From: a virus
IMG/VR virus record: IMGVR_UViG_3300007513_000017
Coordinates: 1 to 64,000 of that record
Length of the DNA: 64,000 nt
Direction: 5' to 3' (one strand)
Shown here: piece by piece, positions 16,311-58,777 of the stretch
Layout: each line of letters opens with the position of its first letter
Position numbering within the stretch: the stretch's first letter is position 1
The notes under the pieces: generated by a model
Told to the model about the DNA's origin: nothing
Seen by the model: the letters and a program-made list of their open reading frames with translations, nothing else
The model's database searches: none
Translations under genes and position numbers: made by a program

Positions 16311-16525
16311 TACGGTAATACTCCAGGTTTACCACCTTTTAATAAGTTTAACTGTTGTGATTGATGTTGTATTTTTTCTTTGAGTTGTTTTGTAATTAGA
16401 CGTGCTGTAGTTTCAACTTCAATAGTATTTTCTTCACAATATTTAACAATAGCATCCACATATAACATATCTTTATGCTTCTTTACTATGTCCTCTATGA
16501 TTAAAGAAAATTCTTTTGAGTTCAT
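16310..16525 (-). CDS. 33: Late transcription coactivator gp33-like
   Basis: 71 residues resembling gp33 of T4-like marine phages, which bridges the late sigma gp55/RNA polymerase to the gp45 clamp. Typical helical pattern: VDAIVKYCEENTIEVETTAR then LITKQLKEKIQHQSQQLNLL. The sigma-70-type promoter at 16532-16560 puts the transcription start on the ATG, so the mRNA should be leaderless. Presence of gp33 fits the many TATAAATA late boxes in the window. gp55 and gp45 are not in the window. Confidence 0.75.
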   Translation of the reverse strand: MNSKEFSLIIEDIVKKHKDMLYVDAIVKYCEENTIEVETTARLITKQLKEKIQHQSQQLNLLKGGKPGVLP

Positions 16526-16531
16526 TTTATT

Positions 16532-16560
16532 ACTATAACATATTTATTAGCAAATGTAAA
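16532..16560 (-). promoter_or_regulatory. Sigma-70-type promoter for gp33 (leaderless)
   Basis: TTTACA (16555-16560), 17-base spacer, TATAGT (16532-16537); the gp33 ATG begins 7 bases after the -10 box, which is where transcription would start. It overlaps the end of the tmRNA region. Confidence 0.7.
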
Positions 16561-16561
16561 G

Positions 16562-16812
16562 TGTGTAGTTTCTGTTGCCACGTACTACACAACGCCGTTT
16601 GCCTATTAACTAGGCAGCAAGAGCATAACTTTCGTTAGCTTTTATGTGTTTGTCCTTTAAAGTAGCAACCTACTATCTAACTCCAGTTAGTTTTGATTGT
16701 GAATCGATTCCATATCATCCCCCATAAGCACACTTGAAATCAATGTGTTTATGGTGGAGATGTTGGGAATTGAACCCAAGTGTTCTCCAACTATTATCTA
16801 ACCTTCAACGTC
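16562..16812 (-). ncRNA. ssrA: Circularly permuted (two-piece) tmRNA
   Basis: Reading the minus strand, the 3' half comes first. The T-arm is at 16779-16763 (stem TTGGG/CCCAA, loop TTCAATT), followed by CATCTCC and an encoded ACCA ending at 16752. After a short intervening segment comes the 5' half starting GGGGATG at 16722, which pairs with CATCTCC and gives the G3-U wobble required for alanine charging. The tag frame at 16639-16610 reads A N E S Y A L A A then TAG. A pseudoknot-like 8-base stem (TGTGTAGT/ACTACACA) ends the gene. A TATAAT box lies at 16819-16824. This split gene order is that of alphaproteobacterial and some cyanobacterial tmRNAs. It would rescue stalled ribosomes and tag proteins for proteolysis. 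Confidence 0.92.
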
Positions 16813-16819
16813 AAATTCA

Positions 16820-17215
16820 TTATAAACTTATTCCTTGTTTGTTTGGCATAAACTTTAAATCAAATGACTTGTATAACATACAAGATTCCATTCCATTCAT
16901 TGTTGACATAACTACAAGTGATATTGTATATGTAGGGTCAACATAATAACTTACTATAAAAACTGGTTCACCATCTGGTCTAGCACTATCTCTACCAACA
17001 GAAACATTAACCAAAGTCATTTCGTTCTTTTCTATATATGCAAGTACACTTTCACTAGTTCCACATATAACAGGCATTTGTAACCAATATAATTGTCCTT
17101 GCAAATTATCTTGTGGCATTTCAGGCAATGGTGATGTTTCCTGCTCCGCCATAGCAAGTGTGCTCATAGTTATGAGTACTGCTCCAAATATTATTGATTT
17201 TAACCTTTTTAACAT
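16820..17215 (-). CDS. Exported hypothetical protein, 131 aa
   Basis: N-terminal signal peptide (LKSIIFGAVLITMSTLAMAE, predicted cleavage after AMA) followed by about 105 residues with two cysteines (VICGTSE; MESCMLY). Periplasmic soluble protein expected. Function unknown. The tmRNA -10 box overlaps its stop codon. Confidence 0.75.
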   Translation of the reverse strand: MLKRLKSIIFGAVLITMSTLAMAEQETSPLPEMPQDNLQGQLYWLQMPVICGTSESVLAYIEKNEMTLVNVSVGRDSARPDGEPVFIVSYYVDPTYTISLVVMSTMNGMESCMLYKSFDLKFMPNKQGISL

Positions 17216-49537: not shown

Positions 49538-49966
49538 CTAGCTCAGCATATTCAAAATTTGCTCAAAATTACCTGCTACTATCCATCCTATTACTATAGC
49601 AGCACCTAATATAATCCATCTATATTTTTCTAATACACCAACTCTAACACCAATAGCATTATAAACTGTTTTAATCTCTAGTAATAAACGTCTTTCAGTT
49701 TGTTCTATTTCTCTAGTTAAATCTCTACGTATATTGTCTATTTCACCTGCACGTTCTTTTAACTTCTCAAATATAACTTCATCAATTTGTTCTTGTCTAT
49801 TGATTTTTTCTGAATGGACTGCCAACATAGACTTAATAGATGTTGATACATCTGTTAATTTGTCTATTGCTGTGTCTAAACGGTTGTGAATTCTATCAAA
49901 TTCTTCAACGTCTTTTTTGAGTTTAGCAATATCTACTTTTGTTTTAATTCCGTTATTTTCGTCCAT
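49538..49966 (-). CDS. Coiled-coil membrane protein, 142 aa
   Basis: Long coiled coil (DIAKLKKDVEEFDRIHNRLD to LLLEIKTVYNAIGVRV) with a C-terminal transmembrane helix (WIILGAAIVIGWIVAGNF). T4-like marine phages often have such a protein. Tail-anchored topology. Last gene of the curli-side operon. Confidence 0.7.
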   Translation of the reverse strand: MDENNGIKTKVDIAKLKKDVEEFDRIHNRLDTAIDKLTDVSTSIKSMLAVHSEKINRQEQIDEVIFEKLKERAGEIDNIRRDLTREIEQTERRLLLEIKTVYNAIGVRVGVLEKYRWIILGAAIVIGWIVAGNFEQILNMLS

Positions 49967-50058
49967 TAGAAATCTCTATCTATCCACTTGTAAATACTCC
50001 AATTCATATAGAGTAATAGACCCATTATTAACCAAAAATTAATTGTTCCCCAATCCAT
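49966..50058 (-). CDS. Membrane peptide, 30 aa
   Basis: MDWGTINFWLIMGLLLYMNW with a short charged tail. TAATG overlaps at both ends tie it to its neighbours. Below usual size limits; moderate confidence. Confidence 0.5.
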   Translation of the reverse strand: MDWGTINFWLIMGLLLYMNWSIYKWIDRDF

Positions 50059-50189
50059 TATACGTTTCTCCATTGTGTTGGCAACCACCATTCGGTGTAC
50101 CAATGTCTAAATTGTGCTGGGTGTCTACCTATGATAAAGATATACCAGAAACCCTTTATTAATTCTTTTATTGCTGTTAACCTACTCAT
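50058..50189 (-). CDS. Small basic Trp-rich protein, 43 aa
   Basis: MSRLTAIKELIKGFWYIFII then HWYTEWWLPTQWRNV. Starts in the last codon region of the FecR protein (TAATG type). Small membrane-associated peptide probable. Confidence 0.5.
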   Translation of the reverse strand: MSRLTAIKELIKGFWYIFIIGRHPAQFRHWYTEWWLPTQWRNV

Positions 50190-52336
50190 TAATCCGTTTG
50201 TATTATAGTAATATTATTTTGTGTAGAGGAACTCCCTACGTCCACGTGTTGAGCTTCTGAATCTTGTAAAATCTGTATATCTGCTTCTTTACTTGTTTCA
50301 GTTTTTACATACGCTCTATGGCTATCATTATATCTATTTATGATTGTGTAGTCACCAGACGTTGAAGCAGTTGCGTTAAAGTCGTTATCTAACGTTGATA
50401 CTCTTCCTGTAGAAGTAGTACTTGTTGACACACCACCGCTTGTTGTAGTTAAGGTTTGAGTTACATCTCCAGTAGAATAATTTAATGTTTCACCACTAGC
50501 AGTTACTTGCGTTTCTGAACCACTATTGTCTACCCATTCAGTACCACAACTAGAGTTGGCATTGTCCCAATAGTATCCATAATTTAAACACTCTTCTTTA
50601 TCATAACTTGCTAATAATAATTCTAATTCTGCGTCTATATCATAGTCATCTTCGTAACCATATTCATCTTCCCAATTGGTCTCATCTGATTCATTATTGT
50701 AATCGTAACCTGTATACCACCAATCATATACTGCGTCCCAATATGTATTCCAATCTGACCATTCCCAATCTGTTATGTACGTATTCTTTAAATCTTTCAT
50801 CTTCCAAGGTTTAGGTTGATTTTCACACATTTTATAATTAGGATAACTTCCACACCAACCATATAATTTACCCCATATCTTTTTAGATTCTTTAGTCCAA
50901 CTATCATTGGTTACTTTTAAAGTCCAGTCATCTTTGTACCACGAATTTAACCAATCAACATAGTCTTGGTTACACCAGTAGTCATCATAGCCATTGTACT
51001 CACAATAATTTTGTATAGTTAATGTTGGTGGACCGCCTGCCGCTTTGTATTCTGCATTGTTATAATAGTCATCATCTAAAGCAAAATCTTCCCAAGTATA
51101 TCCTTCAACTACATCTGCTTCTGTTTCATCTTTTGTATCTTCAACTACGTTAACCTCTTCTTCTTCAACTGCCCAAGAAGTTAAACCATAATCTTCTAAT
51201 AATTCATTATACTCATCATAGTATGCGTCCCAATCAACTGCGTCCCAATCTACATCATCCCAATTAATAGTATCCCAAGTACAATCTGAACAACCAATGG
51301 CGTCAAAGTATGCTTGATCCATTTCTGCATACATTTTCTTTGCGTCATCCCAATCCATAGTTTGTTCACCTTCGGCATCCCAAACTGAAATCTGATTATC
51401 TTCATCTATATAACCCCAATCTTTTAAATCTTCTTCCCAGGAATCATAATAAGATGTATCAACTTCTTCTACTTCAACTAATGCTGTTTCTTCTGCTGAC
51501 TTTGTTTCAACTATTGCGTCTGTTTCACCAACAGATAAATCTGTAGCGACAATTGTATTACTATCTTCTACTACACTTGCTTCTTCATTAATTAATGCCT
51601 CTTCCATTGCCTGTGCTTCAGATTCTTCTTTAGACATTTCAGTTTTCATATCTACATCACCAAAATGTTTTTGAGATTCATCTTTTATTTCTTCTTCAAA
51701 TTCATTTAACTCAATAATATCTGACTTATTAGTTTCTATTTTTGGAGGTGTTGGTGCTAAATCATTTGATAAAACGGTTACTGAATTGTAAGCGTTAGTT
51801 ATTGTTTGAGAACCTGCGTCATTGGATACAGTTACTTGTCCTACTACACCAGAACTATCTGGCAACAAAGTAATAGTTGCTTCACCTGTAGATGTTACCG
51901 TTCCTGAAAAAGCAGTACCTTGTACTGTAATTGTGGCATTACCAGCATTGATATTAACTTCACCACCTAAATTAGATATAGAACCTGATTCATATGTAAA
52001 TGTACCAACATTAACCGATATGTTCATTGCAATTTCTATTGGTACAACAGAAGTATCAAAAGCAAATTCATCAATAGTTAATTCTGTATTTGGTCCCATT
52101 GTAAATTTAGTTTTATCAACATATGATAAAATCATACCACCATCTTCTCCAGTTTGGAGAAAGTCATTCATCTGCAACTCATAACCCATTGAGGTATTTT
52201 GAGTTGAACCATCTCTTTCGTTCCAAGTCGTACCCATTTGACCTATGACTTCGCCAACTTTTGGACCTGTTATTTGTGAGAAAACACTAGTACAAAAAAG
52301 TACCAGAAAAGATATTAAAAATAAAAACTTCTTCAT
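50189..52336 (-). CDS. FecR-domain exported protein with Asp/Trp-rich region, 715 aa
   Basis: Signal peptide MKKFLFLISFLVLFCTSVFS, then a FecR-type beta domain (about residues 25-160: VGEVIGQMGTTWNERDGS, LQTGEDGGMILSYVDKTKF, TMGPNTELTIDEF). Centre, about 270-600, is very acidic and aromatic with DW repeats (INWDDVDWDAVDWDAYY). C-terminal 115 residues are Ser/Thr-rich with a repeat-like TTTSGGVSTSTTSTG. FecR domains sense or scaffold at the envelope. It follows the CxxC protein by four bases overlap and shares the curli cassette. The middle may bind calcium or act as a surface anchor. Confidence 0.85.
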   Translation of the reverse strand: MKKFLFLISFLVLFCTSVFSQITGPKVGEVIGQMGTTWNERDGSTQNTSMGYELQMNDFLQTGEDGGMILSYVDKTKFTMGPNTELTIDEFAFDTSVVPIEIAMNISVNVGTFTYESGSISNLGGEVNINAGNATITVQGTAFSGTVTSTGEATITLLPDSSGVVGQVTVSNDAGSQTITNAYNSVTVLSNDLAPTPPKIETNKSDIIELNEFEEEIKDESQKHFGDVDMKTEMSKEESEAQAMEEALINEEASVVEDSNTIVATDLSVGETDAIVETKSAEETALVEVEEVDTSYYDSWEEDLKDWGYIDEDNQISVWDAEGEQTMDWDDAKKMYAEMDQAYFDAIGCSDCTWDTINWDDVDWDAVDWDAYYDEYNELLEDYGLTSWAVEEEEVNVVEDTKDETEADVVEGYTWEDFALDDDYYNNAEYKAAGGPPTLTIQNYCEYNGYDDYWCNQDYVDWLNSWYKDDWTLKVTNDSWTKESKKIWGKLYGWCGSYPNYKMCENQPKPWKMKDLKNTYITDWEWSDWNTYWDAVYDWWYTGYDYNNESDETNWEDEYGYEDDYDIDAELELLLASYDKEECLNYGYYWDNANSSCGTEWVDNSGSETQVTASGETLNYSTGDVTQTLTTTSGGVSTSTTSTGRVSTLDNDFNATASTSGDYTIINRYNDSHRAYVKTETSKEADIQILQDSEAQHVDVGSSSTQNNITIIQTD

Positions 52337-52704
52337 TTCTTAAACACCTCATCTAAATCATTATAAAACGATTCTTTATCTGCATACCCTATTATTCTTA
52401 CCAATTCTTTTCTACCATTCCATACAATAAATGTTGGTGTTCCTCTAATAGGTTTAATTCTTCCTTCAGCATATGCCTCTTTAAACCATTTAGGTTGATT
52501 ATATAAATTAATAATAACTAAAGGTAAATCTTCATACTCATAGTCAACTCCTACCTCTTGTAAAAAGTTTTGACATATACCACACATAGGATTGTGTGCC
52601 ATTAATAATTCATTTGCTTTCGCTGATGATATGCCTAATACTAATAATACAGTAACACAAATTATTATTGCCCATTTTTCCCAAGGGTTGTGAAATAGTT
52701 TCAT
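52333..52704 (-). CDS. Periplasmic thioredoxin-like protein, 123 aa
   Basis: Signal or anchor helix (WAIIICVTVLLVLGISSAKA), then CxxC in HNPMCGICQNFLQE and cis-Pro loop in IRGTPTFIVWNGRKELVRI. DsbA/SoxW-like periplasmic redox protein. Placed between the curlin-like and FecR genes, it could form or break disulfides in them (the curlin-like protein ends with Cys residues). Confidence 0.8.
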   Translation of the reverse strand: MKLFHNPWEKWAIIICVTVLLVLGISSAKANELLMAHNPMCGICQNFLQEVGVDYEYEDLPLVIINLYNQPKWFKEAYAEGRIKPIRGTPTFIVWNGRKELVRIIGYADKESFYNDLDEVFKK

Positions 52705-52832
52705 TTAAATTTCTTCTTCTTTTCTTTTCTTTTCCATTTTTCTGGATAGTAATTGTGGATTAGTGTACAGATTATGCCACCCGATAAACATATTGTACCA
52801 AATATTAAAAAGAAAGCAAAAAAACCTTTCAT
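52701..52832 (-). CDS. Small membrane protein, 43 aa
   Basis: Two-thirds hydrophobic (FFAFFLIFGTICLSGGIICT) and a Lys-rich end (KWKRKEKKKKFK). Overlaps the thioredoxin-like gene by four bases (ATGA type). Could be a small inner-membrane helper of the cassette. Confidence 0.55.
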   Translation of the reverse strand: MKGFFAFFLIFGTICLSGGIICTLIHNYYPEKWKRKEKKKKFK

Positions 52833-53924
52833 TTAACACCCATTAGATACTGTTGCTGTTACGTCTGCTGTTTGATTGTTTCTGTTATAAGAATAAGTAC
52901 AAGTATATGATCCAGTTTGAGCAAAGTTTAATGTGTAATCGTAAATTGAATCACCTGTTATAGTAACCTTACCAGTATTACCACCACCTGTTTGAGCAAA
53001 ATTTATTACTGTATCATCTGTATAAAGGAAAATTCTAGCAGTATTATTACCGCCTGCCATATGTAATCTAATTGTATTACTATCGCCATTTATTATCGTT
53101 CTTAACCAATTGTTATCGCCAGATATTATAGCTGAGTCTCCATATGGGTCTGTATCAGCACTAGTATAACTAGAGTGAATATCTAAAAGATTTGAACTGC
53201 CTATAAAATCGTGTAGTTGATAGTTACCTGTACCATATGATGAAGTGTGTATTACATTTGAATTTCCTACTATGTAAATATCTGCACTTGCACCTTCACT
53301 ACCTGAACTGTCTGCAAAATAACCGTGTGAAGAAGTTAGTGGACCAATTGCTTTGTTAGAGTTTGTATTAAATCCTACTGAATCAGTTGTACTATACCAC
53401 TCTACAGTATTACTATCACCGTTCATAAGAACATATAAGAAGTGATTATCACCTCTATTCTGAACCCAAAATGTATTTGAGTCACCAACAATATCTAAAT
53501 CAACATTGAAATTTGCTGAATCATCTGTCCAAGTATCATAGTCTACTACATTTGAATTACCTGTAATAGTATGACCTAAATAATGACCTGTAGCATCCGT
53601 ATCATCTATACCTAATCTTAATTTATTAGAATTACCAGTTGCTGTATATAATAAAGTCATATCCTCACCATAAAAGTGTTGGTGACCAGAATAATCTGAT
53701 ACATTATTATTACCTATCTGATTTATAATGATTGTAATGTTCTCTCCATTGACTTTAAATGGATATGTTGTTGAATAACCAACAGTATTACCTGTTCCAT
53801 CTTGTTTTATAAAGATAGAACCATCGCTGTCTTGATTGTCTTGTTGAATCCAAACTGAATTACCTGCTAGGCAATTACTCGTTAATGCTATTAGAGTCAA
53901 CAGAATCATTATCATTTTTTTCAT
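52833..53924 (-). CDS. Curlin-repeat-like secreted protein, 363 aa
   Basis: Signal peptide MKKMIMILLTLIALTSNCLA, then a long Asn/Gly/Ser/Thr-rich beta-helix-like body with recurring GNSN, GDSN and GNNN turns and curlin-type QxGxxN units (KQDGTGNT, NQIGNNNV, AQTGGGNT). The C-terminus ends in SNGC and has another Cys (SYTCTY). It is much longer than CsgA (about 151 aa). It follows CsgG and CsgF, so it is the natural amyloid or fibre substrate candidate of the CsgG pore. Not an exact CsgA. Confidence 0.75.
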   Translation of the reverse strand: MKKMIMILLTLIALTSNCLAGNSVWIQQDNQDSDGSIFIKQDGTGNTVGYSTTYPFKVNGENITIIINQIGNNNVSDYSGHQHFYGEDMTLLYTATGNSNKLRLGIDDTDATGHYLGHTITGNSNVVDYDTWTDDSANFNVDLDIVGDSNTFWVQNRGDNHFLYVLMNGDSNTVEWYSTTDSVGFNTNSNKAIGPLTSSHGYFADSSGSEGASADIYIVGNSNVIHTSSYGTGNYQLHDFIGSSNLLDIHSSYTSADTDPYGDSAIISGDNNWLRTIINGDSNTIRLHMAGGNNTARIFLYTDDTVINFAQTGGGNTGKVTITGDSIYDYTLNFAQTGSYTCTYSYNRNNQTADVTATVSNGC

Positions 53925-55005
53925 CTACTTCCTCCCAGGCTTTCTCGTCTTCTATTTTTTCTTTTATCTTGTTTTTGTTTTCTTCTTTTTGAATTTCTTT
54001 TGTTTTAAGTGCTTCTAAATGTGCTAAATGTGCTTGATATTCGTCCCAAGTTTTAAACTTTGTTTTATTGGCTTTGTTATAATTTTTTACTTCAAGTTTT
54101 TGTGCTTTCTTTAATTCTTTTTTAGCTTTCTTTTCTTTCTTAAAATCTTCGTATGTTTTCTCTGGTTTTGCTTCGCCAATATCAACTGTTATTTCATCTG
54201 CTACTACTTTTAAATCTTCTGTTGGTACTATTTCCACTAGTTCAAATTCCCATAGTCCTTTTTCTGCACCTTCATTAATTAATTCTACTACACCTTTTTC
54301 TATTGCTTTTCTTACTGCATAAGTTACAGGTTCATTTCTTGCCACACCTGCTTCAATCTCTACTAACATTGTATCAGTATCTAAATATTTAAATATATCG
54401 CTGCCAGTTTCACCTGATATTATAGTCTTCTCAACAGTAAGTGATACCACTACTTCACCTGTTTGTACATTAACAAGTCTTAATATAATTGTAACTACAT
54501 CTTGTCGCCATTGTTTATGTGCTTGTATACCTAAAATTCTTGCACCAAAACCACCTGTCTTTACATCACTATCATAACCTACTATACCACCTGTTATATA
54601 TGCACCTGCAAATAACAATGGTGGTAATGGTTCTGCACCTTCTCCATTAACTTGTTGTCTTGTAGAACGGATTAATTTTCTTTCTTGTAATAAACTTGGC
54701 AAACTTGCTCGTTCTACTATTCTAAACCATTTGCCATCACCTGCGTCTTGTAATGCTTTAATTAATAACTGATATGATCCTTGAGTTACTGCTGTACTCA
54801 TAGACGCAAAGTTACCACCAGGTTTCTTTTGTCCTGTCATATCTAAAAAATCATATACTGCAATGATAATAGGATCGCCTTTAGGTAATTTCACTTCCGT
54901 TAATTCTTTATACAGAACAGGTTGAGACCTAACATCAAAGTCAGGTTTACCAGCACAACTAACTAACAATAATGTTAGTAATAATATAACTATACTTCTA
55001 AACAT
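53875..55005 (-). CDS. csgG: CsgG-like curli secretion channel lipoprotein, 376 aa
   Basis: Start set at ATG 55005 (MFRSIVILLLTLLLVSCAGK), lipobox VSCA. CsgG-type core: PIIIAVYDFLDMTGQKKPGG, SYQLLIKALQDAGDGKWFRI, VERASLPSLLQERKLIRSTR, ITGGIVGYDSDVKTGGFGAR, then VVTIILRLVNVQTGEVVVSL. The family forms a nonameric outer-membrane pore. Longer than E. coli CsgG (277 aa) by a Lys/Glu-rich C-terminal extension of about 90 residues. Overlaps the curlin-like gene start by 50 bases, so expression is linked. Confidence 0.93.
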   Translation of the reverse strand: MFRSIVILLLTLLLVSCAGKPDFDVRSQPVLYKELTEVKLPKGDPIIIAVYDFLDMTGQKKPGGNFASMSTAVTQGSYQLLIKALQDAGDGKWFRIVERASLPSLLQERKLIRSTRQQVNGEGAEPLPPLLFAGAYITGGIVGYDSDVKTGGFGARILGIQAHKQWRQDVVTIILRLVNVQTGEVVVSLTVEKTIISGETGSDIFKYLDTDTMLVEIEAGVARNEPVTYAVRKAIEKGVVELINEGAEKGLWEFELVEIVPTEDLKVVADEITVDIGEAKPEKTYEDFKKEKKAKKELKKAQKLEVKNYNKANKTKFKTWDEYQAHLAHLEALKTKEIQKEENKNKIKEKIEDEKAWEEVDEKNDNDSVDSNSINE

Positions 55006-55469
55006 TATGAGTTGTCTTCTTTCGGCATTGTAAATGTTGTTACAGTTCCGTCGGTCTCCGTGACAGTTACGCTTACAGTATCGTTTGCTCCTGTAGTTGT
55101 TGTTGCCCAAGTTACTACTTCACCACCAACTGGTGATGTAAATGTACCAGAGTCTTGTTGTAGACCATCTGTACCAAAAACATTATCTGTAAGTTGTTTA
55201 GCAAGTGCTGTATAAAATCTTGATTCAACATTTGCTTTAAATTTTGCTATTGCTGTTGCCTTGGCGTCTGCTATTACTTTATCTGCCGCCGCTTTATTCG
55301 CTGCCTTTATAGCATCCTTCCTAGTCTTCTCAATATTCTCTATCGTTAGATAATGTGAAGATTTACCTTGACCTGAAAATGATGGACTATGAAATTTAAA
55401 ACTTAATTCACTTGCATAGGCACTAGGAACTAACAATAATACTGTTAAAATAATGGTTATTAATCGCAT
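55005..55469 (-). CDS. csgF: CsgF-like curli assembly protein, 154 aa
   Basis: Signal peptide MRLITIILTVLLLVPSAYAS then LSFKFHSPSFSGQGKSSHYL, matching the N-terminal CsgF motif (xTFxFxNPxFGG) that plugs into CsgG. The C-terminal half is beta-rich with VTVTETDGTVTTFTM, as in CsgF. First gene of the late operon; ribosome site AGAAGGAAA. One-base overlap with csgG. Confidence 0.88.
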   Translation of the reverse strand: MRLITIILTVLLLVPSAYASELSFKFHSPSFSGQGKSSHYLTIENIEKTRKDAIKAANKAAADKVIADAKATAIAKFKANVESRFYTALAKQLTDNVFGTDGLQQDSGTFTSPVGGEVVTWATTTTGANDTVSVTVTETDGTVTTFTMPKEDNS

Positions 55470-55492
55470 TTTCCTTCTCTCTTTGATGTATA

Positions 55493-55500
55493 TATTTATA
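55493..55500 (-). promoter_or_regulatory. T4-type late promoter for the csgF-csgG cassette
   Basis: TATAAATA on the minus strand, 23 bases above ATG 55469 of csgF. Exact T4 late consensus, so the curli-like cassette should be switched on with structural and lysis genes. Confidence 0.75.
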
Positions 55501-55508
55501 AGATATCT

Positions 55509-55522
55509 GTACTAAATAGTAC
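55509..55522 (+). promoter_or_regulatory. Inverted repeat GTACTA-AA-TAGTAC before the cyclase
   Basis: A 14-base dyad with 6-bp arms, two bases before ATG 55525 of the cyclase gene. Could be a repressor site or part of an mRNA hairpin that hides the start codon. Lies between divergent cyclase and csgF genes. Confidence 0.5.
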
Positions 55523-55524
55523 GT

Positions 55525-57180
55525 ATGATTAAAATATTGACGAAAACGTGGGCAGTATATTTGACGTTGATTATATTACTTGGAATATATATATCAAATC
55601 CTATCTTGCTACAAACAGCAAAACTAAACACCTTTGATTTTTACCAAACCTTTGGTAAGAATTATGAATCCAAGAGTTTAGTACTAGTAGACATATCAGA
55701 CAAAGCATTAAAAAAGAATGGGCAATGGCCGTGGAAAAGAGATTTACTTGGTCGTGTCATAATCAATGCGTATAAAAATGGTGCCGCTCTTGTAGTTTTA
55801 CAAGTAGTCTTCCCACATAAAGATAGATTAGGTGGTGATGAAATGTTTTTGAAAATGATACAAAAATATCCAGTCATACTTACTGAAACGGATGATGTAA
55901 AAAATCTACAAAGTATCTCACGTAAAGCATTAGCAATAGGTAACGTAAGTGTGCCAGTTGATATAGATGGCACTATAAGAAAACTACCTCTTGATAAATC
56001 CATACCTGATGTTATCTTAAAAGTTATCAATGCAAAAACTTTAGCAGAAGATACTATCTGGATTGATTTCAGACATCATATTCCTAGAATAGATTTTACT
56101 GATAAAGATTGGTCGTCTGTAAAAGGTAAAATAGTTTTCATAGGTACAACATTCCAAGGTTCAACATTTGTTACTACTCCTAATGGATTAAAAAACACAC
56201 ACGAAATTATGGCAATCAGTACAGAAACTTTATTGTCAGGTAATTTTATTAGTAGACCTTATTGGTTACCATATAGTGAATTTGCTTTTATACTATTAGG
56301 TGCTCTATTTTTTCTCATAGTTATACCTAGATGTGGTGTAATGTGGTCTGCGATATGGTTTGGTGGATACTTATTTGATTTAACACTTGCAAGTTCTTAT
56401 CTATGGACGCAACACTTAATCATAACTGATTGGTTCAGTCCACTTGTAATAGGGTCTGTAATATGGGGTCAGTTAACATACAATAACTATTCAAAAGAAA
56501 ATAAATTAAGACTACAAATTAAGAAACAATTTGAACACTATCTATCTCCAGATATGGTTAAAAAACTACAAAAGAATCCATCACTATTAAAACTAGGTGG
56601 TGAAAGAAAAAAAATGACGTTTTTGTTTTCAGACATACGTGGCTTTACTCCTATATCGGAATCTATGAAAGGTAATCCAGAAAAACTTACCAAGTATGTT
56701 AATAAGTTCTTGACTGTAATGACTGATATAATATTAAAAAATGGTGGAACTATTGATAAATATATGGGTGATTGTATAATGGCATTTTGGAACGCACCCC
56801 TAGACAATCCAAATCATCAAAGATTAGCAGTATTATCTGCATCCCAAATGAAAAAAACAGTTGAAGAAATGAATAAGAGTAGAGAGTTTGACCCACCTTT
56901 AAAGATTGGTATAGGTATCAATACTGGTGAGTGTCTTGTAGGTAATATGGGGTCTGAACAACGTTTTGATTATTCTGTTATTGGTGACGCTGTTAATTTG
57001 GCAAGTAGATTGGAAGGTAAAAGTAAAGATTTTGATACTACAATAGTAATATCTCAACATACTGCTGAAGGTATTGACTTTGTTCCATTGGCAAGACCAG
57101 ATGGATTTAAATTCTATAAACTAGGTATCTCTACTGTAAAAGGTAAAAAAGAAAAGGTTAATTGTTTTTCTATTAAATAA
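55525..57180 (+). CDS. CHASE2-class III adenylate cyclase, 551 aa
   Basis: Transmembrane start (WAVYLTLIILLGIYISN), a CHASE2 extracytoplasmic sensor (about 35-245: LVLVDISDKALKKNGQWPWK; GKIVFIGTTFQG), three further membrane helices (about 250-325), then a class III cyclase domain: metal Asp in FLFSDIRGFTPISESM, KYMGDCIMAFWNAP with Lys and second metal Asp, FDYSVIGDAVNLASRLEG with substrate-binding Asp, Asn and Arg. All key residues for ATP are present, so it looks active. One of two plus-strand genes, divergent from the csgF cassette. Expected to make cAMP in response to an envelope signal. Confidence 0.93.
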   Translation: MIKILTKTWAVYLTLIILLGIYISNPILLQTAKLNTFDFYQTFGKNYESKSLVLVDISDKALKKNGQWPWKRDLLGRVIINAYKNGAALVVLQVVFPHKDRLGGDEMFLKMIQKYPVILTETDDVKNLQSISRKALAIGNVSVPVDIDGTIRKLPLDKSIPDVILKVINAKTLAEDTIWIDFRHHIPRIDFTDKDWSSVKGKIVFIGTTFQGSTFVTTPNGLKNTHEIMAISTETLLSGNFISRPYWLPYSEFAFILLGALFFLIVIPRCGVMWSAIWFGGYLFDLTLASSYLWTQHLIITDWFSPLVIGSVIWGQLTYNNYSKENKLRLQIKKQFEHYLSPDMVKKLQKNPSLLKLGGERKKMTFLFSDIRGFTPISESMKGNPEKLTKYVNKFLTVMTDIILKNGGTIDKYMGDCIMAFWNAPLDNPNHQRLAVLSASQMKKTVEEMNKSREFDPPLKIGIGINTGECLVGNMGSEQRFDYSVIGDAVNLASRLEGKSKDFDTTIVISQHTAEGIDFVPLARPDGFKFYKLGISTVKGKKEKVNCFSIK

Positions 57181-57262
57181 ATGCTATTATTAAATAGCAA
57201 CTTAACCCTATAACTATTCCCAATACTGCAACAACACCTGCTAAGGTATATATTGTCTTCAT
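57173..57262 (-). CDS. Membrane peptide, 29 aa
   Basis: MKTIYTLAGVVAVLGIVIGL then SCYLIIAFI. ATGA overlap with the gene upstream; overlaps the 3' end of the convergent cyclase by eight bases. Short; moderate confidence. Confidence 0.45.
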   Translation of the reverse strand: MKTIYTLAGVVAVLGIVIGLSCYLIIAFI

Positions 57263-57423
57263 TTTTTGTCTGTTAACTTATTAATAAGTTCAAACGCTAC
57301 TTTAACTTTCTCTTCCAACACTTTAATTCTATAGTGTGATTGTGCTAAAGTAACTATCAATAACACAAATGCTACTAGCATTGGCCAAAGTCTACTCAAC
57401 ATTAATACTGCTTCACTATCCAT
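57259..57423 (-). CDS. Small membrane protein, 54 aa
   Basis: N-terminal helix LSRLWPMLVAFVLLIVTLAQ then a coiled-coil tail (YRIKVLEEKVKVAFELINKL). One-base overlap with the zinc-ribbon gene upstream. Located between the spanin region and the cyclase. Confidence 0.6.
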   Translation of the reverse strand: MDSEAVLMLSRLWPMLVAFVLLIVTLAQSHYRIKVLEEKVKVAFELINKLTDKK

Positions 57424-57608: not shown

Positions 57609-57784
57609 TACTTTTGTCTGTTAATTGTTTTCTTAACTAAATCAACAGTACTTTTACTAATATCTTTAGTCTTTGTTAATAAATTTCCACCAAGGTTTAT
57701 TATTTTTGTTCTAGGTGTTATCTTTTCTTGTACAATCTTTTTTGTTTTTGGATCATACTTTTGCTGTAAAAATTCCATTACCAT
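57608..57784 (-). CDS. Small basic protein, 58 aa
   Basis: MVMEFLQQKYDPKTKKIVQE and a Lys-rich helical C-terminus (STVDLVKKTINRQK). Starts in a TAATG overlap with the lipoprotein upstream. Unknown. Confidence 0.55.
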   Translation of the reverse strand: MVMEFLQQKYDPKTKKIVQEKITPRTKIINLGGNLLTKTKDISKSTVDLVKKTINRQK

Positions 57785-58155
57785 TATTCCTTCTCCTTTT
57801 CTTTTTTCTTATCATCTGGTTCATAATATTCTTTATACTGGTCAAGTAAATCATTAGTGTGTTTCAAGTGTGCTCTTATTTGAGCAAAGTTTTTTGCAAT
57901 TAATTGAAAGTCCTTATCACTCAATCCAAATAGTACTGGATCAAGTCCTTCTGCTTCCATCTTTTGGAATACTTCTTCTGCATTGTCAGAAGTAATTATA
58001 ATCCACCTCAACTTTTCAAGTTCAGGCATAGTTGGTTTAACTAAATCTAATTTCTGTCTAGGTTCTTCTAACTTAAATATTTTAAGTTGTTTCTCACCGA
58101 TTGAACAACCAGTAAGTATTAGAACAGCAATGATACTAATTATTATACGGTACAT
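57784..58155 (-). CDS. Outer-membrane spanin-like lipoprotein, 123 aa
   Basis: Signal with lipobox LTGC (IIISIIAVLILTGCSIG) and a charged helical body ending KKKEKEKE. It overlaps the coiled-coil inner-membrane gene by 20 bases, the arrangement of Rz/Rz1-type spanin pairs. Larger than classical Rz1, so the name is an inference. Confidence 0.65.
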   Translation of the reverse strand: MYRIIISIIAVLILTGCSIGEKQLKIFKLEEPRQKLDLVKPTMPELEKLRWIIITSDNAEEVFQKMEAEGLDPVLFGLSDKDFQLIAKNFAQIRAHLKHTNDLLDQYKEYYEPDDKKKEKEKE

Positions 58156-58612
58156 ATGATGGATTTGCTATGGATGGGCACTCCCTATTAATTTCTGATT
58201 TTTTGGTTGCGTTCTTCTCTTGTTCGGTAAGTGGTGAACCACCTGCTATCTCTACACAACGAATAGCTTTATCACTTGCACCGTTAATAATTCTTTGTAT
58301 TGTTTCTGTTTTTTCTATGGCGAGTTTACCAAAGTCACGACCTTTTTTATTAAATCTTTTATCTAAATCATCTAAATCTTTTTTAAGAGCTGAAACAAGT
58401 TCGTTCATCTTGTTGTTTGCTTTTAAAATTTCTTTAAAGTCTTCTTGTTGCTTAGCAATGAGTTCCTTTTGAGAACTCACTGCTTCTTCCAATTTGATTT
58501 GATTCGCTTTTAAAATGGCATTATCGGATCGTAACTTCATTACATACATACCTGCACCTGCAAGTCCTGTAATCATCACAACTACCATCGCCATTTTTAA
58601 ATAACCAAACAT
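58136..58612 (-). CDS. Inner-membrane spanin-like coiled-coil protein, 158 aa
   Basis: N-terminal anchor (MAMVVVMITGLAGAGMYVMK), coiled coil (AILKANQIKLEEAVSSQKEL to MNELVSALKKDLDDLDKRF), and C-terminal RCVEIAGGSPLTEQEK with NRECPSI, a motif seen in i-spanins of marine T4-like phages. Partner is the overlapping lipoprotein. Together they would fuse the membranes at lysis. Confidence 0.75.
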   Translation of the reverse strand: MFGYLKMAMVVVMITGLAGAGMYVMKLRSDNAILKANQIKLEEAVSSQKELIAKQQEDFKEILKANNKMNELVSALKKDLDDLDKRFNKKGRDFGKLAIEKTETIQRIINGASDKAIRCVEIAGGSPLTEQEKNATKKSEINRECPSIANPSYVPYNN

Positions 58613-58618
58613 AACTTT

Positions 58619-58777
58619 CTAGTCTTTCTTTAGAACTGCCCAAGCTCCGTAAGCAATTGCCGCCCAAGCAGCAATTTTAGCAACTGGACTGAAAAACAAA
58701 ACTACAACGCCTAATCCTATTAATACTCCACCGTGTAATGATGTTAGTTCTTTTAGTCTTCCTGTTATAAAACCCAT
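58619..58777 (-). CDS. Small membrane protein, 52 aa
   Basis: MGFITGRLKELTSLHGGVLI, then GLGVVVLFFSPVAKIAAWAA and a basic end (VLKKD). Good ribosome site AAAGGAGAA. Two helices; may be a holin-like or accessory membrane protein next to the spanin pair. Confidence 0.65.
   Translation of the reverse strand: MGFITGRLKELTSLHGGVLIGLGVVVLFFSPVAKIAAWAAIAYGAWAVLKKD

Follow-up and report, generated by a model that had tools for sequence, protein, structure and literature searches.

Organization of the curli-type cassette

The window analysed here, a stretch of 64,000 nucleotides (nt) of the 90,103-base virus record IMGVR_UViG_3300007513_000017 (G000), carries a cassette in which the genes of a curli-type secretion system stand together with those of a FecR-type protein and of a CHASE2 adenylate cyclase. 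Specifically, computational analysis found six minus-strand genes, all of them open, contiguous and overlapping or touching one another, which apparently form one operon: csgF (55005-55469), csgG (53875-55005), a curlin-repeat gene (52833-53924), a gene for a membrane peptide of 43 amino acids (aa; 52701-52832), a thioredoxin-like gene (52333-52704) and the gene of the FecR-type protein (50189-52336). The cyclase gene (55525-57180) lies on the plus strand and starts 55 nt from csgF, in divergent orientation. In addition, a T4-type late promoter motif, TATAAATA, is found on the minus strand at 55493-55500, 23 nt before the csgF start codon. A preliminary description of this DNA had grouped the CsgG/CsgF pore, its curlin-type substrate, the FecR-type protein and the CHASE2 cyclase into one phage-encoded cassette, and the contiguity of the genes together with the profile matches of their products bears this out.

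The conservation of this layout was evaluated in a first set of 74 related viral loci, fetched from viral contigs, and in a second set of 80 further loci of the type carried by pelagiphage HTVC008M, examined together with five earlier ones; a few HTVC008M-type loci occur in both sets. In 23 loci of the first set, csgF and FecR are both present and flanked on each side by 2.3 kb or more; these loci, some of them near-identical contigs, are termed well-flanked in the following. CsgG, a curlin and the cyclase are all present in 23/23 well-flanked loci. The cyclase gene is divergent in 18 of these 23 loci and lies downstream, on the same strand, in 5, while the genes for the 43-aa peptide (6/23) and for the thioredoxin-like protein (inside the cassette in 5/23) are optional. 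In the second set, as far as the contigs extend, the genes follow the order csgF-csgG-curlin-FecR-(curlin)-cyclase.

The secretion pore and its candidate substrate

The window CsgF (154 aa, with a signal peptide recognized by eye) matches the Pfam profile CsgF (PF10614) above the cut-off, with an E of 5.9e-11. CsgG, the outer-membrane pore subunit (376 aa, lipobox LLVSC), passes the cut-off of Pfam CsgG (PF03783) with an E of 8.7e-50, which settles in favour of the preliminary description the profile check that it had proposed for this protein. The start that gives 376 aa was upheld and judged correct, the open reading frame (ORF) list having placed it at an upstream TTG that would give 411 aa, and a lipobox was recognized by a regular expression in 56 of 57 CsgG sequences of the first set (L001-L079 and the window). 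Among 50,697 phage records, a search that may omit records very close to the window's own, this CsgG found 8 matches, the best of them 48.4% identical (HTVC008M). At the C-terminus, the CsgG proteins of the window clade are extended by a Lys/Glu-rich stretch that varies in length (53878-54240, minus strand, in the window) and that HTVC008M-type CsgG lacks. Finer motifs were less informative, as the constriction-loop pattern of CsgG caught the bacterial loop in only 10 of 80 sequences, and an N-terminal motif of CsgF, present in 46/50 first-set proteins against 8/58 of the HTVC008M type and 7/58 of bacterial origin, is a clade pattern that proves little.

The protein encoded next to the pore (363 aa, again with a signal peptide seen by eye) can be assigned to the curlins through its relatives. 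The window protein itself gave no Curlin_rpt match even at E 1, and its score against the NCBIfam CsgA model (E 0.0029, 17.5 bits) falls short of the cut-off of 160. Curlin_rpt nevertheless matches 22 of the 31 members of an alignment of its relatives (A1) at E<=1, with a best value of 6.7e-8, and the A1 family profile, run against 177,635 distinct PDB sequences, returned a single match at E<=10, namely the CsgA major curlin subunit (8enq, E 1.3e-4). At the level of the family, these matches point to a curlin-repeat substrate. Structure prediction, which the preliminary description had suggested, yielded an all-beta AlphaFold2 (AF2) model with a predicted local distance difference test score (pLDDT) of 71.8 and a predicted TM-score (pTM) of 0.73; a conserved Cys pair lies near the C-terminus (residues 342 and 363). 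A Foldseek search with this model returned weak beta-helix proteins only (best E 8.2e-3), CsgA not being among the matches shown, and a comparison with VIA gave a Z of about 16 at a root-mean-square deviation (rmsd) of about 4. These similarities are read as a predicted beta-solenoid shape, not as kinship.

Three other records touch on the distribution of these genes. A locus filed in a Flavobacteriaceae metagenome-assembled genome (L080, NZAX01000026.1) carries an HTVC008M-type phage cassette and is, most likely, a phage contig binned in error. A clone of 1.5 kb deposited as Salmonella phage (L005, OR851715.1), with an apparent enterobacterial-type csgG, is probably host DNA. Finally, the 356-kb Brevundimonas phage Kabachok has a csgG-like gene (L004:5788-6678), with no csgF match in the fetched stretch.

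Domains and C-terminal strand of the FecR-type protein

The secreted 715-aa protein opens with signal-peptide-like residues (1-20), followed by a retention-like domain (24-96), a PupR/FecR-like region (103-198), a Trp/Asp/Tyr-rich region with 8 conserved Cys and a beta-rich tail ending in NNITIIQTD. The window protein has no Pfam match at E 0.1. Pfam FecR matches 20 of the 28 members of an alignment of its relatives (A2) at E<=0.1, with a best value of 3.4e-8, and the HTVC008M protein at 1.2e-8. In other words, the FecR label of the preliminary description, like its curlin label, holds through the relatives and not through the Pfam search of the window protein itself. Additional family searches gave 3/28 matches of A2 members to the Leptospira surface-adhesin model Lsa33 (best 9.4e-8) and no match of the FecR profile to PDB sequences at E 10.

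In the predicted structure, residues 24-96 superimpose on 5ix9, annotated as a 'Cell surface anchoring domain', with a Z of 12.7 and an rmsd of 1.3 over 73 of 76 residues (Foldseek E 4.4e-4), and up to residue 90 the block has a pLDDT of 65-85; we take 5ix9 to be the retention domain of the Marinomonas primoryensis adhesin. Residues 103-198 match the PupR signalling domain (6ovk; Z 9.1, rmsd 2.1, 87 aligned), less surely than the preceding block matches the retention fold. Judged from the model, residues 24-96 would thus adopt a retention-domain fold. At the sequence-family level this identity is not reached, since the retention_LapA model (NF033682) matches 12/28 A2 members weakly at E<=0.1 (best 0.0034), below its cut-off. 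The 20/28 relatives and the PupR fold match together argue for a periplasmic FecR domain. Retention domains act as periplasmic anchors of exported adhesins (PMC13090378). The 'FecR' protein of the phage looks more like a fibre-linked surface anchor than like an iron regulator.

The alternative is the published regulatory reading, according to which the curli genes are regulated by FecR in dependence on iron, and the cyclase supplies a cyclic AMP (cAMP) pathway that activates curli (PMC9599517). In its favour are the Pfam matches of the relatives and of HTVC008M and the similarity of residues 103-198 to part of an anti-sigma regulator, the PupR signalling domain. The signal-peptide-like start, however, runs directly into a beta domain, and no cytoplasmic anti-sigma part or transmembrane helix ahead of the periplasmic domain was seen by eye (no transmembrane predictor was run), nor did Pfam show an anti-sigma part in the 28 members. 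Moreover, candidates for a sigma factor are scarce, as sigma-70 region-2 matches were found only below the cut-off, in contigs of 177 and 171 kb (G164:C1:166784-166933, in a 184-aa frame, and G166:C1:165671-165814, in a 190-aa frame), and none was found in the 90-kb record. These frames would most simply be a phage late sigma factor of the T4 gp55 type, or so we presume. The regulatory reading also has no place for the curlin-type tail described below, and it is the least probable of the alternatives considered here.

That tail was defined by the pattern [IVLA]x[IVLAF]xQx(1-2)-end, other ORFs being counted from 100 aa upwards. In the first set, 38 of the 39 complete FecR proteins carry it, against 6 of 729 other ORFs, and those non-FecR ORFs that also pass a stricter pattern are HTVC008M-type curlins. 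In the second set it is found in 40/41 FecR proteins, 50/53 first curlins and 7/18 second curlins against 1/599 others, this one exception ending in a curlin-like manner. It is absent from bacterial FecR proteins whose stop codon could be seen (0/52), and composition-matched shuffled FecR tails match in about 2% of cases. Among curlin-like ORFs of bacteria, a repeat Gln is often the last residue or nearly so, and the strict pattern is present in 46/156. The counts of the two phage sets come from related sequences and not from independent events. The last 8 columns of the FecR alignment are well conserved (mean 0.94 against 0.77, a value that 5.9% of windows reach), and long and short FecR types, which differ in length and in their middle part, both retain this end. 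A profile of bacterial curlin tails reaches 3 bits or more in 13/32 and 3/31 FecR tails, against 9/657 and 4/467 other ORFs.

The CHASE2 cyclase and its association with FecR

The 551-aa product of the divergent gene combines a CHASE2 sensor (E 5.4e-28) with a class III cyclase domain (Guanylate_cyc, E 1.9e-22). Residues D370, D416, K412 and R495 are kept in 45/45 phage cyclases, and N491 and S484 in 44/45. We assume for these residues the usual roles (two metal-binding Asp, Lys, Arg, Asn and Ser), and on residue rules the enzyme is presumably an adenylate cyclase of class IIIb. With its complete catalytic set and an adenine-type Lys, the protein is thus a predicted CHASE2 class III adenylate cyclase. 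A second cyclase-like gene was observed in L066, L068, L069 and L070, either past FecR on the opposite strand or past the first cyclase.

The neighbourhood of FecR and CHASE2 has parallels in bacteria. In 22 csgG-bearing alphaproteobacterial genomes, chosen from csgG loci, a FecR site lies within 5 kb of 7 of 12 CHASE2 sites. In 142 alphaproteobacterial genomes (mean genome 3.8 Mb) the same holds for at least 32 of the 94 strongest CHASE2 sites, where about 0.7 would be expected. FecR beside CHASE2 is, in other words, a cellular gene pair. The pairing is described in Campylobacterota cyclase clusters (PMC9239204), and in Burkholderiales an operon of a LysM-FecR protein and a CHASE2 kinase has been tied to biofilm (PMC5192318). 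Constitutive cAMP production has been described for a Sinorhizobium cyclase construct that lacks CHASE2, and the cAMP regulator Clr has a FecR-domain gene among its targets there (PMC5498481).

Late promoter motif and genomic context

The sequence TATAAAT is used as a T4 late-promoter sequence in PMC9004378. In the first set, 58 of 74 csgF genes have TATAAATA in the 150 nt upstream, and in the second set the motif falls between -150 and +90 of 76 of 80 csgF ORF starts, phage Melnitz being among those without it. Before the downstream genes it was never found, neither in the first set (0/77 for CsgG, 0/65 for the curlin, 0/60 for FecR) nor in the second (0 of 81 for CsgG, 0 of 89+31 for the curlins, 0 of 65 for FecR), and before the cyclase it was found in 0/62 and 1/31 cases. 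This distribution suggests that the csgF operon would be expressed late in infection.

The cassette is surrounded in the window by genes for the large and small subunits of ribonucleotide reductase, a primase subunit, Rz-like spanins and tail proteins, and the same gene order recurs on a 177,460-bp viral contig whose CsgG is identical to that of the window. The block therefore belongs to a phage, and the join to a host contig that the preliminary description had kept in mind can be set aside. The ribonucleotide reductase is closest to that of Pelagibacter phage Mosig (83.6%); the phage is T4-like and near the pelagimyophages, and we infer a SAR11-like host. A permuted alphaproteobacterial-type transfer-messenger RNA (tmRNA) gene with the tag ANESYALAA was noted at 16519-16845 (minus strand); Melnitz and Mosig are also reported to carry a tmRNA (PMC9004378).

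Beyond the cyclase, a minus-strand gene at 57259-57423 codes for a 54-aa protein with a transmembrane segment and a coiled coil, which is near the cassette in 23/23 well-flanked loci and whose membership in it is uncertain. On the other side, the coiled-coil DUF7201 ORF (49538-49966) was rejected as a member, as it goes with the primase gene, each being present in 22/23 well-flanked loci. Lysis-type genes adjoin the cassette at 57784-58777 (minus strand), namely Rz-like spanins and a holin-like 52-aa ORF, the latter labelled from its sequence and with no PHROG match.

These genes bear on a second alternative, in which CsgG and CsgF, as proposed for Melnitz (PMC9004378), form a gated pore timed with lysis, and curlin and FecR would be gating parts. 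The late motif before csgF fits this proposal, as does the presence of a spanin gene at a distance of 1-6 kb from csgF in all of those well-flanked loci (20 of 23) in which such a gene was detected; Melnitz has a gene for a cell wall hydrolase about 8 kb upstream of csgF. A lysis pore would not, however, need the curlin and the cyclase that accompany it in 23/23 well-flanked loci, and the annotation of the 20.9-kb HTVC008M stretch, where many genes are hypothetical, lists no lysis gene. Moreover, an outer-membrane pore alone would not depolarise the inner membrane. A role in release, which the preliminary description had also listed, is thus a published speculation to which the window adds the late motif and the nearby spanin genes and nothing beyond, and on balance it appears unlikely.

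The optional thioredoxin-like gene encodes an exported CxxC protein of 123 aa that stands exactly at the cut-off of Pfam Thioredoxin_2 (E 6.1e-6). The preliminary description had counted this redox protein in the full set; its presence in only 5/23 well-flanked cassettes places it outside the conserved one. The same scarcity, together with the near-constancy of the curlin Cys pair and of the 8 Cys of long FecR proteins with or without the gene, led to the rejection of the thioredoxin as a dedicated, necessary disulfide partner, although it could still help. Exceptions to the 8-Cys pattern are the FecR of L064, with 6 Cys, and that of L014, split into two ORFs. In two loci without the thioredoxin-like gene (L009:7477-9657 and L047:7173-9332) the FecR protein opens with the leader of the window 52333-52704 gene, MKLFHNPWEKWAII..., as if the gene had been lost by fusing its leader onto FecR; a similar leader is found on another secreted protein (L016:5681-6151).

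A possible mechanism: fibre export, anchoring and cAMP signalling

Remodelling of the infected cell's surface, as proposed in the preliminary description, is the natural reading of such a cassette. In a more specific form, we propose that the products of a late phage operon secrete a curlin-type fibre, hold it on the infected cell and link it with cAMP signalling, a reading to which we assign a probability of about 0.42. CsgG, as the outer-membrane pore, and CsgF, as its partner at the pore exit, would export the curlin-repeat protein. The FecR-type protein would then be not an iron-responsive anti-sigma regulator but an anchor or nucleator of the fibre: the retention-like and FecR-like domains at its N-terminus would remain on the periplasmic face of the outer membrane, and the curlin-type strand at its C-terminus would join the fibre or the CsgG/CsgF exit. 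From there it may report to the cyclase in the inner membrane through the periplasmic CHASE2 domain of that enzyme, as in bacterial FecR-CHASE2 pairs, so that cAMP would change late in infection. The label of iron regulator would thereby give way to that of a secreted, curlin-tailed, retention-like protein tied to a CHASE2 receptor as in bacteria.

A bolder version, which we regard as rather doubtful, is that FecR with its curlin-type strand joins two unrelated cellular modules, the curli exporter and the CHASE2-FecR pair, by being built into, or capping, the amyloid at the CsgG pore. If so, the state of the fibre would be relayed to cAMP, and the cassette would represent a viral sensor of amyloid assembly.

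A number of observations weigh against fibre export coupled to cAMP. The first concerns the strand itself, as the curlins of the window clade end in Cys and show the tail pattern in 1/36 only, so that the FecR protein ends like HTVC008M-type and many bacterial curlins and unlike its own partner; because of this difference, confidence was lowered slightly both in the proposed mechanism and in its amyloid-sensor version. In addition, the profile of bacterial curlin tails is not specific, since it scores CsgF tails as high (26/40, first set), and the FecR tail may therefore be a generic strand end. The structural argument is also exposed: the whole FecR model is weak (AF2 pLDDT 62.3, pTM 0.27), the 6ovk match falls on a block with a pLDDT of about 32-67, and the window protein reaches only 0.012 and 15.8 bits against retention_LapA, with a cut-off of 50. 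As for timing, TATAAATA is not enriched across the window (11 occurrences against 18 expected), so that its placement ahead of csgF is what the argument depends on, and in the first set it also precedes the 54-aa gene (21/54) and the DUF7201 gene (5/33).

Further points concern the coupling and its outcome. Phage-derived profiles found FecR or cyclase neighbours in 0/79 bacterial csgG loci (80 were searched, the 80th being L080), a count limited by flanks that in some cases stop with the contig and by the chance that a diverged FecR escaped the profiles; the coupling of curli with FecR and cyclase is therefore without cellular precedent there. Taken together with the CHASE2-FecR pairing, the same count indicates that the phage unites two modules kept apart in these cells. 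No protein binding cyclic nucleotides was found in the records of 90, 177, 171 and 57 kb, and hence a host factor would have to respond to cAMP. In the Melnitz study, infected cells showed no clumping (PMC9004378). Finally, CsgE was not found in 3 phage records, which are possibly incomplete, nor is CsgE universal in bacteria.

The apparent lack of CsgE is also the starting point of a third alternative, in which an always-open CsgG channel imports solutes, or a coat blocks competing phages, with the cyclase raising cAMP independently of any fibre. Both uses have been proposed (PMC7029224, PMC9599517), and the cyclase can indeed be a separate divergent unit, as in 18/23 well-flanked loci. Uptake or exclusion leaves unexplained, however, both the curlin-type strand of FecR and the togetherness of the parts in 23/23 loci, and we consider it improbable, to the same degree as the aid to lysis.

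Comparison with known systems

The preliminary description had supposed that the full gene set may be new, but it was already reported. CsgF and CsgG were described in pelagimyophages, with 'sibling capture' as a proposed role (PMC7029224, 2020), and then in Melnitz, with lysis timing (PMC9004378). The order CsgF-CsgG-CsgA/B-FecR-(CsgA/B)-adenylate cyclase was subsequently reported in pelagi-podophages and -myophages and attributed to an alphaproteobacterial origin (PMC9599517, 2022), in a study that also lists a histidine kinase, takes FecR as an iron-dependent regulator and finds curli cassettes widespread in ocean phages. In addition, among the adherence genes of phages from seawater, csgG was found to be the most abundant (PMC11309003). 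As for the parts stressed here, CHASE2 does not occur as a word in the main texts of PMC7029224, PMC9004378 and PMC9599517, nor are thioredoxin and signal peptide mentioned in the main text of the last. In open-access PMC since 2022, curli, pelagiphage and FecR come together only in PMC9599517, and a search of open-access PMC found no article that joins a FecR domain with a curlin. The gene set is thus known, and the window clade is a diverged variant of it, with a long FecR, one curlin, a mostly divergent cyclase and an optional thioredoxin.

With the type VIII secretion system of pelagiphages such as HTVC008M, the window cassette shares the set CsgF-CsgG-curlin-FecR-cyclase, related phages and the late motif before csgF, and it belongs to the same group. 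Its CsgG is 48% identical to that of HTVC008M over residues 41-259, its FecR has 715 aa where theirs have about 370, and a single 363-aa curlin takes the place of their usual two; the cyclase of its clade is divergent in 18/23 loci, its CsgG has the C-terminal extension and a thioredoxin-like gene is optional. Methylophilales phage Melnitz likewise holds CsgF, CsgG, FecR, cyclase and two curlin repeat proteins in one block, and differs by a short FecR, the second curlin, a downstream cyclase and the lack of TATAAATA near csgF.

Among cellular systems, bacterial curli have CsgG, CsgF and curlin repeats in common with the cassette by profile; they differ in that 79/79 csgG loci have no FecR or cyclase neighbour, while on the phage side CsgE was not found (3 records). 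The CHASE2-FecR pairs of Campylobacterota and Burkholderiales likewise place a FecR-domain envelope protein beside a CHASE2 receptor, whereas no curli genes are named beside them in the available parts of PMC9239204 and PMC5192318, and 0/52 bacterial FecR proteins have the curlin-type end. FecR/PupR anti-sigma regulators resemble residues 103-198, in a low-confidence part of the model, and differ from the phage protein, in which no cytoplasmic anti-sigma part was seen. Lastly, the retention domains of LapA and of the Marinomonas primoryensis adhesin differ in being lodged in a TolC-like channel and cleaved, under the control of cyclic di-GMP, by LapG-type proteases (no search for such a channel or protease was made here), but share their fold, as predicted, with FecR residues 24-96.

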